A stretch of DNA of 32,358 nucleotides. Origin: an uncultured Spirochaetaceae bacterium (GTDB taxonomy: Bacteria > Spirochaetota > Spirochaetia > Sphaerochaetales > Sphaerochaetaceae). Location: NCBI GenBank assembly GCA_944389055.1, contig CALXKY010000005.1, forward strand, positions 1 through 32,358, read 5' to 3'. Of the stretch, positions 20,230 to 25,474 are shown piece by piece. The notes under the pieces were generated by a model. That model was not told where the DNA came from and made no database searches. It was given only the letters and a program-made list of their open reading frames with translations. A program made the position numbers and the translations under genes. Numbering within the stretch: the first letter of the stretch is position 1; every line of letters begins with the position of its first letter.

Positions 20230-21342
20230 ATGGCTAAGAGAGATTATTATGAGGTGCTCGGTGTCTCCAAGACAGCTACCGAGGAAGAGATAAAGAAGGC
20301 GTACAGGAAGATAGCGCTGCAGAATCATCCGGATACGCATCCCAATGACAAGGATGCCGAGGAGAGGTTCAAGGAGGCCAGTGAAGCCTACGAGGTCCTT
20401 TCCGATCCGAAGAAGAGAAGCGCCTATGACCAGTTCGGATTCAGCGGCATGAATGATTTCCAGGGTGGAGCCGCCGGCAATTATTCGAACGTCTACCGCG
20501 ATTTCTCCGATATCTTCGGAGGATCCGGCTTCTCGGATTTCTTCTCATCCTTCTTCGGAGGCGGCGGAAGGGCGCAGCAGCGCTCTGGATACGGTGAGCC
20601 CGGCGCTTCCCTCAGGTATGACATAACCATAGACTTCAGTGAGGCTGTCAACGGATGCCGGAAGGAGATCACATTCGGCCACAAGGTGAAGTGCTCCTCA
20701 TGCGGAGGAACAGGCGGAACAGGCAGGAAGACATGTCCCACCTGCCACGGTTCTGGACGTGTGACGAGCGGCAACGGTTTCTTCCAGATGGCCTCCACCT
20801 GCCGCACCTGCGGAGGAACTGGTCATATAATCGAGAATCCGTGTGCCTCGTGCCACGGAACGGGAACGGAGACGAAGACCGAAAAGCTCATGGTCACGAT
20901 TCCTGCAGGCGTCGATAACGGGTCGCGCCTCACGCTCCGCGGCAAGGGCGATGCCGGTACGAACGGCGGAGCAGATGGTGATCTCATCCTTTTCATATCA
21001 GTCCGTCCCGATAAGTACTTCGTCAGGGAAGGCAGCGATGTCTACCTCCAGATACCTGTAGCGGTTACGCAGGCTGCGCTCGGTGCATCGGTCCTTGTCC
21101 CCACAGTCGATGGCGTGAACATCAAGGTGGATATACCAGCAGGCATACAGTCTGGTACAATGCTCCGTGTGAAGGGAAAGGGAATCCCGTCTCCGAGAGG
21201 GAACCAGCGCGGTGATATGTATCTCCGTATCCTGGTTGAGACGCCCAGACGGCTTTCCATGAAGGCAAAGGAGCTCATGAAGGAGCTCGCCAGGGAGCTT
21301 AAGGAGACCACGAGCCCCACACCGATGGAGTTCCAGGAATAA
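20230..21342 (+). CDS. dnaJ: Co-chaperone DnaJ (Hsp40)
   Basis: DnaJ, which delivers unfolded proteins to DnaK and stimulates its ATPase. The 370-residue product has the J domain (residues 1-70, HPD at 33-35) and a Gly/Phe-rich linker (about 75-120). Four zinc repeats follow: [24 protein letters not shown] and CASCHGTG. The C-terminal substrate-binding domains come last. All key residues are present, so this is a type I DnaJ. A GAGGGAG site precedes the ATG. The stop overlaps the start of rlmB (TAATG). Confidence 0.98.
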
Positions 21343-22088
21343 TGGGTGAGAAAGTTTACGGATACCATGCTATTGAAGAGGCCCTGAAGAAAGCAGGGAT
21401 GGGTTCTACGCTGTATATCCAGCGTCAGGGCGGAGAGAAGCTCGAGGCTCTTGCAAGGCAGGCGAAGCTTACCGGCAAGGTCGCTGTGAAGAAGCTTTCA
21501 CGCGAGGAGCTTGAGAGAATGCTTCCCGATGCGGATCTGAGGGGTGCCCTTCTTGATCTCGGAGGCCCCAGAAGGGGAGCCTCCCGCCTTATCGAGACGG
21601 ATGTCGAGGAGTTCTGCGCGAAGCTCGGCGAAGATGATGCGGCGCTTGTCCTCATTCTCGATGGCATCACCGATCCCCATAATCTCGGTGCGATTCTCCG
21701 CTCTGCAGATCAGTTCGGGGCTGATCTCGTGATGATTCCTGAGCGCCGTGCAGTGCAGGCGAATGAGACAGTGGTCAAAGTCTCATCCGGAGCTGCGCAG
21801 TATGTGCCGATCTCTGTGGTGACGAATCTGACCAGGGAGATCAAGGTGCTCAAGGATAACGGCTTCTGGATCTATGGCGCTGATATGGCAGGCGAGGAAA
21901 GCTATTCCATCTCATTTCCCAGGCGCACGGCCATCGTCATGGGATCGGAAGGCAATGGCATGTCCCAGCTTGTGAGGAAGAACTGCGATCATATCATCTC
22001 GATACCGATGCAGGGACACATAGATTCCCTCAACGTATCGGTCGCTGCAGGCATACTTCTCTACGAATTCAGACGCCCCAGGGCGTAA
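21342..22088 (+). CDS. rlmB: 23S rRNA 2'-O-methyltransferase, TrmH/RlmB family
   Basis: A SpoU/TrmH-family RNA 2'-O-methyltransferase of 248 residues, most like RlmB, which methylates a guanosine in the 23S rRNA peptidyl-transferase region. The N-terminal substrate-binding domain starts YGYHAIEEAL. The C-terminal knotted domain shows LDGITDPHNLGAILRSA, IVMGSEGNGMS and IPMQGHIDSLNVSVAAGI, the three family motifs. The ATG overlaps the dnaJ stop by one base, so it is probably read with the chaperones. Other TrmH-family targets cannot be ruled out. It ends two bases from the convergent purD-like gene. Confidence 0.9.
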   Translation: MGEKVYGYHAIEEALKKAGMGSTLYIQRQGGEKLEALARQAKLTGKVAVKKLSREELERMLPDADLRGALLDLGGPRRGASRLIETDVEEFCAKLGEDDAALVLILDGITDPHNLGAILRSADQFGADLVMIPERRAVQANETVVKVSSGAAQYVPISVVTNLTREIKVLKDNGFWIYGADMAGEESYSISFPRRTAIVMGSEGNGMSQLVRKNCDHIISIPMQGHIDSLNVSVAAGILLYEFRRPRA

Positions 22089-22090
22089 TC

Positions 22091-23350
22091 TCAGGAGAAA
22101 TAGGCGTTTCCTATGTCGTCTCTGTACCAGAGGCCCGGGAAGCGCTTTCTCTTTATGAGATCGTAAGCATTTCTGTTCGCCTCTCCGATGCTCTCTCCCT
22201 TGCCGACTACGGTGAAGTTCCTTCCTCCTGTCGTTATGGCCTTGCCGTCCTTCTCCTGGATTGCACCGCAGAATACGATCGGTCCATTGCTCAGCGGCTC
22301 GAGGAACATCGGCGTGATGCCTTCGATCTCGCGTCCTGTCTGCGGATGCAGCGGATAGCCTTCTGAAGCAAGAACGACAGCAACAGTGCTTTCATCCGTG
22401 GTAGAGAGCTCAACAGAGCTTACCTCATCCTTCTCCATGGCCCAGAGGATGGATATGAGATCAGTGTTTATGATCGGGATCATGGCCTGCGCCGCGGGGT
22501 CGTTGAAGCGTACATGATAATCCACGAGATACGGCTCCTTGTCCGGGGTTATCATCAGTGAGAGCGTGAGTATACCCTTGTAGGCAAGCTGTTCCACCTG
22601 CATGCCGTAGAGCGTCGGGTTTATGATCCGCTCGACAACCTTCTCCTTTATCTCGTCGATGATCGGCAGCGGGCAGAGAGCGCCCATTCCTCCCGTGGGC
22701 GTGTCATCATCGGAGGCTTTCCGCGTATAGTCGCTTGTAATCGGAAGCATCAGATATCCGTTCCTGTCGAGGAGGAGCGAGCAGCTTGCAGGCGTGCCTG
22801 AGATGAATTCCTCAAGGAGCACCGGTCCTTTCCTGAAGAGTATCTTCGAGTAGTCTACCAGGGCACCCGTGTCAGATGAGGAGAGCATTATCCTCGATGG
22901 CGTGACATAGTTGCTCTTTATCGTGAAATGCTCGCCGCTGTGGCGTTCAAGATATTTCGTGAGTCCCTCGATGTCACCGAAGAGGGAGCTATGCGGGATC
23001 GGTATGTTGTGCCGTCTGGTGAATGCCCTTGAGAATGATCTGTCGCCTTCGAGCTTCACCGATCCTTCCGGCGCTCCGAATGTGCGTATTCCTCTGTCAT
23101 TGAGGTATTTCACCACTCCGGTGAAGAGCGGGGCTTCCGTTCCGATGAATACATAATCGATATCATGTTCCCTGCATGCCTGATAGACCGCCTCCGGATC
23201 CGCGGGATCCACATCGGGCAGATTCGTGCACAGCCTTCCGGTGGCGAAATTCCCCGGAGCTGCAAACAGCCCGGAGAGATAGCAGCTTCTGCTGAACCAC
23301 CATGCAACAGCATGGTCCTTAGCTCCAGACCCAAGCAGTAGAACGCGCAT
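22091..23350 (-). CDS. purD: Divergent PurD-like ATP-grasp ligase
   Basis: A 419-residue protein colinear with phosphoribosylamine-glycine ligase (GAR synthetase, about 430 residues), the second step of purine synthesis. It keeps the N-terminal GSGAKDHA (7-14), APGN, IGTEAPL, LEEFISG and GGMGA (220-224). Several conserved motifs are changed. The KADGLAAGKGV block reads KSNYVTPSRIM (145-155), QDHKR reads SDYTR (206-210), and the metal-ligand EFN in EFNxRFGDPE reads DYH (277-279). It may be a fast-evolving PurD or an ATP-grasp enzyme with another substrate. AAAGGAG precedes the ATG. It lies downstream of dusB on the same strand. No other pur gene is in the window. Confidence 0.75.
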   Translation of the reverse strand: MRVLLLGSGAKDHAVAWWFSRSCYLSGLFAAPGNFATGRLCTNLPDVDPADPEAVYQACREHDIDYVFIGTEAPLFTGVVKYLNDRGIRTFGAPEGSVKLEGDRSFSRAFTRRHNIPIPHSSLFGDIEGLTKYLERHSGEHFTIKSNYVTPSRIMLSSSDTGALVDYSKILFRKGPVLLEEFISGTPASCSLLLDRNGYLMLPITSDYTRKASDDDTPTGGMGALCPLPIIDEIKEKVVERIINPTLYGMQVEQLAYKGILTLSLMITPDKEPYLVDYHVRFNDPAAQAMIPIINTDLISILWAMEKDEVSSVELSTTDESTVAVVLASEGYPLHPQTGREIEGITPMFLEPLSNGPIVFCGAIQEKDGKAITTGGRNFTVVGKGESIGEANRNAYDLIKRKRFPGLWYRDDIGNAYFS

Positions 23351-23423: not shown

Positions 23424-24380
23424 TTAGCGGAGAAGCAGTCCAAGTGCCTCCGCCATCTCCTCTTCAGTGAGGGCCATGCCGATTGCATTCTTCGCTTTCG
23501 CGCTTCCCGGGATGCCCTTGATGTAGGCCATGAGATGCTTGCGCATTTCCCTGCAGCCGACATTCTCGCCGAAGTATCTGATCATGAGGCGGAGGTGCGT
23601 CATGGCCGTCCCGATCCGTTCCTCAAGCGATGGGACGGCATAGCTTCCTCTGGATGCAAGCTCCTTCGTCTCTCGGAATATGAATGGGTTCCCTATAGCG
23701 CCGCGCGCGAACATCACGCCATCGAGGCCGCAGCCATCCATAAGGGCGATTGCATCTTCCGGGGAGAATATATCCCCCGATCCGAATAGGAGGATCCCGC
23801 TGCCGCTGAAGTGCCGGGCGATTTCCCTGAACGCGTTCCTGTCTGCTTTGCCTGAGTATCCCTGGGCACGTGTCCTGGCGTGCAGCGTCAGCATCTCCGC
23901 ACCCGCTTCTGCCGCTTCATCAGCAAAAGCAAGGTAATTGATGGAATCAGAGTCCCATCCCAGGCGGAACTTCACCGAGACCGGTATATCTGTGTGCTTT
24001 TTTATCGTCTTTACGATCTTCCCGATAGCCCCGGGATTCCTCATCAGCGCGGAGCCTGCTCCTGTCTTCACGACCTTCGGTACAGGGCAGCCACAGTTGA
24101 TGTCGATTACGGCGGGATCATGCTGCAGGAGGCTTTCAATCGCACGTTCCACAGGATCCTCGGATGGCCCGAAGATCTGGATGATGAGCCTGTCCTCTCC
24201 TGGAAAGCGCTCGAGCAGGGCCTTTGTCTTGTCCCCGCCTCTGGCAAGTCCCTCTGCGCTCACCATCTCCGTTACTGCGGCATCCGCTCCCATTGAGCGC
24301 GCCACTTCCCTGAATGCCTTGTCCGTATAACCTGCAAGAGGGGCCAGTATGAATGGCCCTCCGATCGTCCCTATATTCAC
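23424..24380 (-). CDS. dusB: tRNA-dihydrouridine synthase (DusB-like)
   Basis: A flavin-dependent tRNA-dihydrouridine synthase, which reduces uridines in the tRNA D-loop using FMN and NADPH. From the GTG at 24380 the product is 318 residues. The FMN-binding barrel starts with APLAGYTDKAFR. The catalytic Cys is in INCGCPVPKV (Cys98), and LHARTRAQGYSG and FARGAIGNPFIF follow. The GTG gives the normal N-terminus (NIGTIGGPFILAP); a TTG nine codons earlier is open but less likely. No clear Shine-Dalgarno sequence precedes the GTG. The gene is divergent from ricT across 56 bases and upstream of the purD-like gene. Confidence 0.92.
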   Translation of the reverse strand: MNIGTIGGPFILAPLAGYTDKAFREVARSMGADAAVTEMVSAEGLARGGDKTKALLERFPGEDRLIIQIFGPSEDPVERAIESLLQHDPAVIDINCGCPVPKVVKTGAGSALMRNPGAIGKIVKTIKKHTDIPVSVKFRLGWDSDSINYLAFADEAAEAGAEMLTLHARTRAQGYSGKADRNAFREIARHFSGSGILLFGSGDIFSPEDAIALMDGCGLDGVMFARGAIGNPFIFRETKELASRGSYAVPSLEERIGTAMTHLRLMIRYFGENVGCREMRKHLMAYIKGIPGSAKAKNAIGMALTEEEMAEALGLLLR

Positions 24381-24436
24381 GCCACGATGATAGCATAGAC
24401 TTCCCAAATTGCCATCTGTGTGTTAGCTTTTCAGCT

Positions 24437-25474
24437 ATGAAGCAGAAAGCGGTCCATGATCATAGCGATGACTGGGCATATGTATATGTAATAAAGAATC
24501 CATCATACAACGATATATGCCTCTGCGCGTGGGACAGCGTCCTATACGCAGGGACTCCTGTCGTGTATGAGACACGCTTCGGGCTGGATCTGGGCCTTGT
24601 TGTCGGCCCCGCGCCTGTTCCCGGCAGCCATTATGTCCCCGGACATACGGAAGTCCATGGAGCCTGCCTCCATTTCGGTGATGAGAAGGAGGAGGATGAT
24701 GTCCGCTACAAGGCTGATGACAATGCCCATCAGTGCGATTCATGCTTTGCCTGCAGGATCACAAAGGATCCGGAGAAGATGCATGTGGACGGCAGCGTGA
24801 CCTGGATCGATCATCTCGCGACGCCTTCCGAGATGGCGAGGTACAGCGAGAACGAGGCAAAGGAAGAGGAAGCGCTCCGGATCTGCCGCGAGAAGATACG
24901 CAAGCATGGGCTAGGAATGAAGCTCGTTACCACGCATTTCCTTCTTGGCGAGCCGAAGGTCATATTCTTCTTCACAGCTGATGAACGCGTCGATTTCCGC
25001 GATCTCGTGAAGGATCTCGTCTCCGTCTTCCGCATGAGGATCGAGCTCAGGCAGATAGGCGTCAGGGATGAGTCGCACCTTCTCGGAGGTCTCTCCGTAT
25101 GCGGCCGCGACTACTGCTGCCATCTGATGACACGTGAGATGGATCCCGTCACGATAAAAATGGCGAAGGAGCAGAATCTCTCGCTGAACTCGATGAAGAT
25201 ATCCGGACCATGCGGGAGGCTCCTGTGCTGCCTTGCCTATGAATATGACTACTACATGGAGGAGAAGGCGGGATGTCCGCCGGAGGGAACGCGCATCAGG
25301 ATTGACCATGATCTCTGGAGGGTGAATGAGATCAATATACTTTCCAGGATGATCACTCTCACAGCCAGCGAAGGCCGCACCATCTCCGTTCCGTTCGAGG
25401 AAATCTCGCAGAACAGCGAGACGGGCTACTGGGAAGTGAGCGAGGAGTATCAGGAGGAGCTCTTCTCATCCTGA
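24437..25474 (+). CDS. ricT: PSP1-domain protein, RicT/YaaT-like
   Basis: A PSP1-domain protein of 345 residues. In Bacillus, RicT (YaaT) works with RicA and RicF in an iron-sulphur complex that directs RNase Y. The C-terminal core has GLSVCGRDYCC (Cys222, 227, 228), KMAKEQNLSLN and SGPCGRLLCC (Cys259, 264, 265), matching the family cysteines. The N-terminal part contains an extra CDSCFAC motif (Cys100, 103, 106) after an acidic stretch, and the protein is longer than the usual 270-280. The frame is open from 24353, but the ATG at 24437 suits the family better. There is no obvious Shine-Dalgarno sequence. Divergent from dusB. Confidence 0.88.
   Translation: MKQKAVHDHSDDWAYVYVIKNPSYNDICLCAWDSVLYAGTPVVYETRFGLDLGLVVGPAPVPGSHYVPGHTEVHGACLHFGDEKEEDDVRYKADDNAHQCDSCFACRITKDPEKMHVDGSVTWIDHLATPSEMARYSENEAKEEEALRICREKIRKHGLGMKLVTTHFLLGEPKVIFFFTADERVDFRDLVKDLVSVFRMRIELRQIGVRDESHLLGGLSVCGRDYCCHLMTREMDPVTIKMAKEQNLSLNSMKISGPCGRLLCCLAYEYDYYMEEKAGCPPEGTRIRIDHDLWRVNEINILSRMITLTASEGRTISVPFEEISQNSETGYWEVSEEYQEELFSS

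Follow-up and report, generated by a model that had tools for sequence, protein, structure and literature searches.

Locus and protein

The window is the whole stretch of DNA analysed here, 32,358 nucleotides from an uncultured Spirochaetaceae bacterium. It carries a gene for a variant form of PurD (GAR synthetase), referred to below as PurD*, in the following setting:

21342..22088, forward strand: rlmB-type SpoU rRNA methylase gene, convergent, the right-hand anchor of the locus
22091..23350, reverse strand: PurD*, an open reading frame of 419 aa in which the ATP-grasp, glycine and metal motifs are rewritten
23424..24407, reverse strand: dusB (Pfam Dus), directly upstream of PurD* and co-directional, with 73 bp between them
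24353..25474, forward strand: PSP1-domain (RicT-like) gene, divergent, the left-hand anchor

PurD* matches the Pfam models GARS_N (1-101), GARS_A (102-286) and GARS_C (322-415), all above cut-off and nearly full-length, and scores 303.5 bits against NCBIfam TIGR00877 (purD), just above the cut-off of 288; the three-domain GARS architecture thus extends across the full length of the protein. The 11 solved structures found to be homologous are all PurD/GAR synthetases, with 2yw2 the best match (E 2.4e-65). The AlphaFold model (mean pLDDT 80.2, pTM 0.79) has a predicted ATP-grasp fold that closely follows 2yw2 (Foldseek TM 0.88; structural alignment Z 44.0, rmsd 2.8 over 407 residues). An earlier note on this DNA had called the protein PurD-like and colinear with GAR synthetase, and these matches bear that description out. 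In comparison with PurD (TIGR00877; 2yw2, 1gso), PurD* shares the full-length fold, the three GARS domains, the order of motifs, the near-universal C-domain residues, TGGMG, Lys145, Glu180 and Arg281. PurT (1kj8) and PurK (3v4s), ATP-grasp enzymes that act on phosphoribosyl substrates, have the same superfamily fold (Z 28.6 and 27.2), but identity in the structural alignment is about 14%, and neither Pfam nor NCBIfam gave a PurT or PurK family match. Two further candidates were rejected: PADLOC returned no anti-phage system match, and the 62 plasmid records that match PurD* are all below 60% identity (five listed at about 33-34%), which argues against a plasmid-borne source. The titles and abstract openings searched contained no report of the variant.

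The locus compared with purine operons of relatives

The closest relatives with canonical motifs, here termed A-type PurDs, lie in a locus of the order tatD-dusB-purF-purM-purN-purD, facing rlmB. A dusB search in relatives with a canonical-motif PurD placed dusB upstream of purF, purM and purD in several of them. Our map covers 13 A-type loci. In five of them (L058, L060, L064, L066, L069), tatD, dusB, purF, purM and purD follow in order on one strand, with rlmB, dnaJ and dnaK convergent on the other side; in L069, 3 kb separates dusB from purF. In three more (L062, L067, L070), tatD, purF, purM and purD are present but no dusB was recognised, and L070 lacks rlmB as well. The remaining five depart from the full ancestral order: L061 and L063 are cut short upstream, L059 shows just purM and purD, L065 is rearranged, and L068 has nothing recognised upstream. 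A convergent rlmB lies downstream in 11 of the 13 loci, and purN was found between purM and purD in all four loci tested.

Loci of the variant lineage read (tatD)-dusB-purD*, usually facing rlmB. None of 66 contains purF or purM. dusB immediately precedes purD* in 55 of 63; in the other eight it is not within 400 bp, although three of these have dusB further up on the same strand. A convergent rlmB lies within 600 bp in 45 of 60 loci and not in the other 15. In other members tatD stands between the PSP1-domain gene and dusB, and none was seen there in the genus loci examined. In two genomes, G056 (L151) and G042 (L154), tatD-dusB directly faces rlmB, and none of the old purine genes, purD included, is left at this place.

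The variant locus therefore corresponds to the two ends of the A-type locus with the middle missing, and PurD* appears to be the only purine gene left from an operon that was deleted. From these end states we infer deletion as the path. Because the ancestral operon accounts for the adjacency of dusB, this neighbour offers no clue to the function of PurD*, and tRNA modification was dropped as a functional lead on this ground. The earlier note was right about the adjacency but took it as incidental, while it marks an ancestral dusB-purF-purM-purN-purD operon.

Active-site residues

The three rewritten blocks that the earlier note had pointed out are all present in the protein:

22886..22918, reverse strand: KSNYVTPSRIM, residues 145-155, in place of the glycine-rich loop KADGLAAGKGV, with the first Lys retained
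22721..22735, reverse strand: SDYTR, residues 206-210, in place of QDHKR/ADFKK, with the ATP-contacting Lys214 of A. aeolicus PurD replaced by Thr209
22493..22522, reverse strand: DYHVRFNDPA, residues 277-286, with the metal pair Glu/Asn replaced by Asp277/His279, Arg281 retained and the glycine-contacting Glu replaced by Ala286

A study of A. aeolicus PurD names Glu100, Lys103, Lys143, Glu185, Glu192, Asp212, Lys214, Arg287 and Glu292 as charged active-site residues; Glu192 and Lys214 contact ATP, and glycine is bound by Asp212, Arg287 and Glu292, the last of these contacting it (PMC8880213). When PurD* is aligned with this enzyme, five of the residues named there are retained (Glu100, Lys143, Glu185, Asp212 and Arg287 as Glu101, Lys145, Glu180, Asp207 and Arg281), Lys103 corresponds to Arg104, and Glu192, Lys214 and Glu292 are replaced by Pro187, Thr209 and Ala286, leaving the glycine-binding set partly retained. 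Glu283 and Asn285 of the A. aeolicus enzyme, which we take to be the metal ligands as in ATP-grasp enzymes, align with Asp277 and His279, in agreement with the exchange of Glu/Asn for Asp/His proposed earlier. PurD* accordingly has no E-x-N before R-F-G-D-P-E, and where the glycine-rich loop of PurD ends in G-K-G it reads S-R-I.

These replacements were counted over all 66 distinct variants and 43 canonical PurDs, copies shorter than 380 aa (L019, L053 and others) being left uncounted; the motif tables cover 61 of the 66. K11 and H279 occur in all 66 variants and in no canonical PurD. S152 and D277 are each present in 63 variants and again in no canonical row, the three exceptions being basal rows of the family-level group f25. 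Lys145 is found in 66 of 66 and Arg281 in 65, with a basal f25 row as the exception. The metal pair reads D-x-H in 63 variants, E-x-H in two and S-x-H in one, against E-x-N in 43 of 43 canonical PurDs. Among the 63 non-basal variants, Lys145, Arg281 and the Asp/His pair are each invariant, and the loop has S in 63 and R in 61 (G152S, K153R), whereas all 43 canonical rows carry G and K at these positions. For the residues named in the A. aeolicus study, the equivalents of Glu192 and Lys214 are lost in PurD* and in all 63 non-basal variants, the Glu292 position is Ala or Ser in all 63, D or E stands at the position of Asp212, and Arg287 is retained. One clade-wide residue pattern in 66 distinct proteins means that the replacements are not noise from a single organism.

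The quoted motifs had been described as nearly invariant in the PurD family. The spirochaete pur-operon PurDs, the nearest canonical relatives, mostly read ADFKK and EYN, however, not QDHKR and EFN; some of the divergence from E. coli PurD therefore predates the variant clade. Similarly, GGMGA and APGN had been listed as kept; TGGMG is indeed shared with PurD, but APGN varies across the clade, where ARGN, APAS and others occur.

Phylogeny and selection

For the trees, the 66 variants were thinned to 48 (quick tree) or 31 (careful trees). In the tree of 66 rows, 31 of them variants, the variants form one clade (support 100/100) nested among the A-type PurDs, with other PurDs as outgroup. This is not an artefact of convergent active-site columns, as support was still 99/97 after their removal. 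The nearest group is that of the A-type pur-operon PurDs (L058, L064, L066), which occupy the same dusB/rlmB slot as PurD*; unlike PurD*, they adjoin purF, purM and purN and retain the glycine-rich loop, a DFKK-like motif and EYNVRFGDPE. The three f25 rows are basal. Two of them are nearly identical sequences, and support for the position of the third, L116, is weak (85/35). All have the His and the rewritten loop, and two of the three still carry Glu and GDPE. The Glu-to-Asp and Glu-to-Ala changes thus probably came later than the Asn-to-His change and the rewriting of the loop, an order that depends on the f25 rows.

Column statistics were taken from 45 of the 48 thinned variants, with the three f25 rows set apart. 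The variants have lost 33 of the 69 columns that are near-universal in PurD, and 10 of these 33 have been re-fixed at a frequency of at least 95%. By domain, the losses amount to 7 of 16 columns in the N-domain, 25 of 40 in the ATP-grasp domain and 1 of 2 in the linker. The C-domain has none: it keeps 11 of 11 columns, compared with 15 of 40 in the ATP-grasp domain (Fisher p 2.6e-4). Fifteen sites are fixed differently between variant and A-type PurDs, 11 of them in the ATP-grasp domain. Median dN/dS, computed only from pairs with dS<2.5, is 0.108 for the variant (94 of 214 pairs), 0.122 for dusB (62 of 210), 0.077 for rlmB and 0.083 for dnaJ. dN is slower in the variant than in dusB (median ratio 0.77 over 193 pairs), and no internal stop was present in any listed variant match. 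The gene is thus under purifying selection.

Distribution and purine pathway genes

In a search of 394 Spirochaetia genomes, 87 of the 92 genomes of its family gave a PurD* match at E<=1e-100, most of these matches being recognised as the variant by similarity alone. The five without such a match are G208, G231, G375, G388 and G381; dusB lies near a contig end in G375 and G388, where the apparent absence of the gene may reflect incomplete assembly. All 36 genomes of the genus, including that of the window, have the variant, in two fragments in G015 and as a partial match in five others (G005, G010, G012, G021, G030). Matches of 41-49% identity that bear variant-type motifs were found beyond the family too, in the family-level groups f3, f4, f17 and f25. 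Named records among the close relatives are Candidatus Ornithospirochaeta and uncultured Spirochaetaceae, Spirochaetales and Sphaerochaetaceae. G208 and G231, 1.2-Mb genomes of the genus coded g32, have a strongly diverged PurD-like protein (L131, L132) on a contig other than that of dusB, with Asn/Lys as the metal pair and neither D277 nor H279. Whether these copies belong to the variant clade is unsure; a branch length of 2.58 makes their placement uncertain, and they were therefore excluded from the careful trees and the variant counts.

The genome of the window, 87.7% complete, yielded no purM, purF or purC above cut-off, which speaks against a complete purine pathway, and the GARS_A and purD models recovered PurD* alone, leaving no second canonical PurD. 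The same holds across much of the genus: 26 of 36 genomes, the window's included, have the variant without a canonical PurD and without purM, purF or purC above cut-off. Thus, the remark that no other purine gene was in sight extends beyond the window to its own genome and 25 other genus members for these three genes, and PurD*, unlike PurD, occurs in many genomes without the purine pathway. Below the cut-off, the 26 genomes give partial purF matches of about 28 to 98 bits, putatively other glutamine amidotransferases or phosphoribosyltransferases.

In some species PurD* coexists with a second PurD encoded in a separate purine operon. A canonical second PurD was found in 10 of the 36 genus genomes, and purM was above cut-off in the same 10; purF and purC were also above cut-off in nine of them, with weaker matches in G026. 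Family-wide, purM (E<=1e-95) is present in 36 of 92 genomes, and 53 have the variant without purM. Among 27 purM-bearing family genomes outside the genus, 25 have a canonical PurD elsewhere, G358 has a second PurD match besides the variant, and G354 has none. Fusion to PurN is seen in several of these canonical PurDs. The variant was not encountered as the only PurD of a complete pathway, the arrangement that the earlier note regarded as decisive against its reading, but four genomes (G092, G037, G051, G354) had purM with the variant as the sole PurD found. In G092 the canonical PurD is a GARS_C-formyltransferase fusion piece at a contig edge, followed by purH. The other three are fragmented assemblies (about 440, 200 and 270 contigs), with purM on short contigs in G037 (4.4 kb) and G051 (3.5 kb).

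Two side observations concern other purine genes. Only the later, AICAR-transformylase part of PurH was matched in 32 of 36 genus genomes (for example G013:C16:15969-17153), 22 of which lack purM and purF above cut-off; this match may be to another remnant purine enzyme or to a salvage enzyme. The canonical PurDs of several Spirochaetia include fusions with a PurN-like formyltransferase in both domain orders, with the formyltransferase before PurD in L135:1093-3003 and after it in L142:1432-3459, L138:835-3105, L140:865-3207 and L178:1-852.

Origin and possible function of PurD*

Taken as a whole, we consider it reasonably probable that PurD* is a stranded operon PurD that changed function once, has been kept by selection and now acts as a modified ATP-grasp enzyme, the history being much firmer than the mechanism. 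The ancestral tatD-dusB-purF-purM-purN-purD operon would have lost purF, purM and purN in one spirochaete lineage, leaving dusB-purD. The orphan PurD would then have changed function once, with the Asn-to-His metal-site change and the loss of the glycine loop coming first and the Glu-to-Asp change and the loss of the glycine-binding Glu later, and would since have been maintained under purifying selection. PurD* is very probably no longer a GAR synthetase. Its remodelled D-x-H metal site and S-R loop may serve to activate another acid or to engage another phosphoribosyl or nucleotide partner.

The change of substrate suggested earlier is supported indirectly, by new residues fixed at active-site positions, low dN/dS and the presence of the gene without the purine pathway. 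As to what the protein does now, we lean towards an active ATP-grasp enzyme with other substrates rather than a sensor or pseudoenzyme, at a confidence just short of even, in view of the retained Lys145, Glu180 and Arg281, the metal-capable Asp/His pair and the conserved C-domain. In PurD-like enzymes the C-domain helps bind the ribose-phosphate substrate. With the equivalents of Glu192, Lys214 and Glu292 lost, catalysis may be gone altogether. A pseudoenzyme or sensor, keeping the fold and a ribose-phosphate or nucleotide site while having lost phosphoryl transfer and, for example, reporting purine or PRPP state, is a lesser though real possibility. It would fit a protein that has lost the glycine loop and the counterparts of Lys214 and Glu192 while keeping all 11 near-universal C-domain columns, as well as the occurrence of PurD* in genomes without the tested pathway genes; but Lys145, Arg281 and the metal-capable Asp/His pair, each in 63 of 63 non-basal variants, are not obviously needed for pure binding, and we know of no partner.

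It is very unlikely that PurD* still makes GAR despite its rewritten site, with phosphoribosylamine from another source. The TIGR00877 score, the retained Asp207 (D or E), Arg281 and C-domain, and the three genomes with purM and no other PurD found are in its favour, but 26 of 36 genus genomes lack purF, purM and purC above cut-off to supply its substrate or use its product, all 10 purM-bearing genus genomes have a separate canonical PurD, and the apparent exception G092 has the fusion piece at its contig edge. A functionless, decaying leftover of the deleted operon is scarcely credible: PurD* is an operon remnant, two reduced g32 genomes have strongly diverged copies and purD is missing between dusB and rlmB in G056 and G042, but the low dN/dS, a dN slower than that of dusB, the lack of stops in the listed matches and the re-fixation of ten lost columns oppose it, so that loss of function by decay, the other outcome raised in the earlier note, is unsupported for the variant clade and only the two g32 genomes carry a strongly diverged copy.

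Returning to the preferred reading, PurD* may represent a new enzyme family derived from the remnant of a lost pathway, a D-x-H ATP-grasp enzyme with a new phosphoribosyl or nucleotide substrate that is near-universal in one spirochaete family, which we put forward tentatively. The main new result looks to be the origin of PurD* from a deleted purine operon, followed by exaptation. Pathway loss and then exaptation of a single enzyme can be seen here with unusual clarity, since the full operon, the stripped operon and the purD-less locus are all visible in related genomes, and the basal forms hint at the order of the active-site changes. Because PurD* passes the purD equivalog cut-off, annotation would call a purine gene where the pathway seems absent; the protein probably does a new job even though annotation software would name it a purine enzyme, and its near-universal retention in the family makes that function testable.
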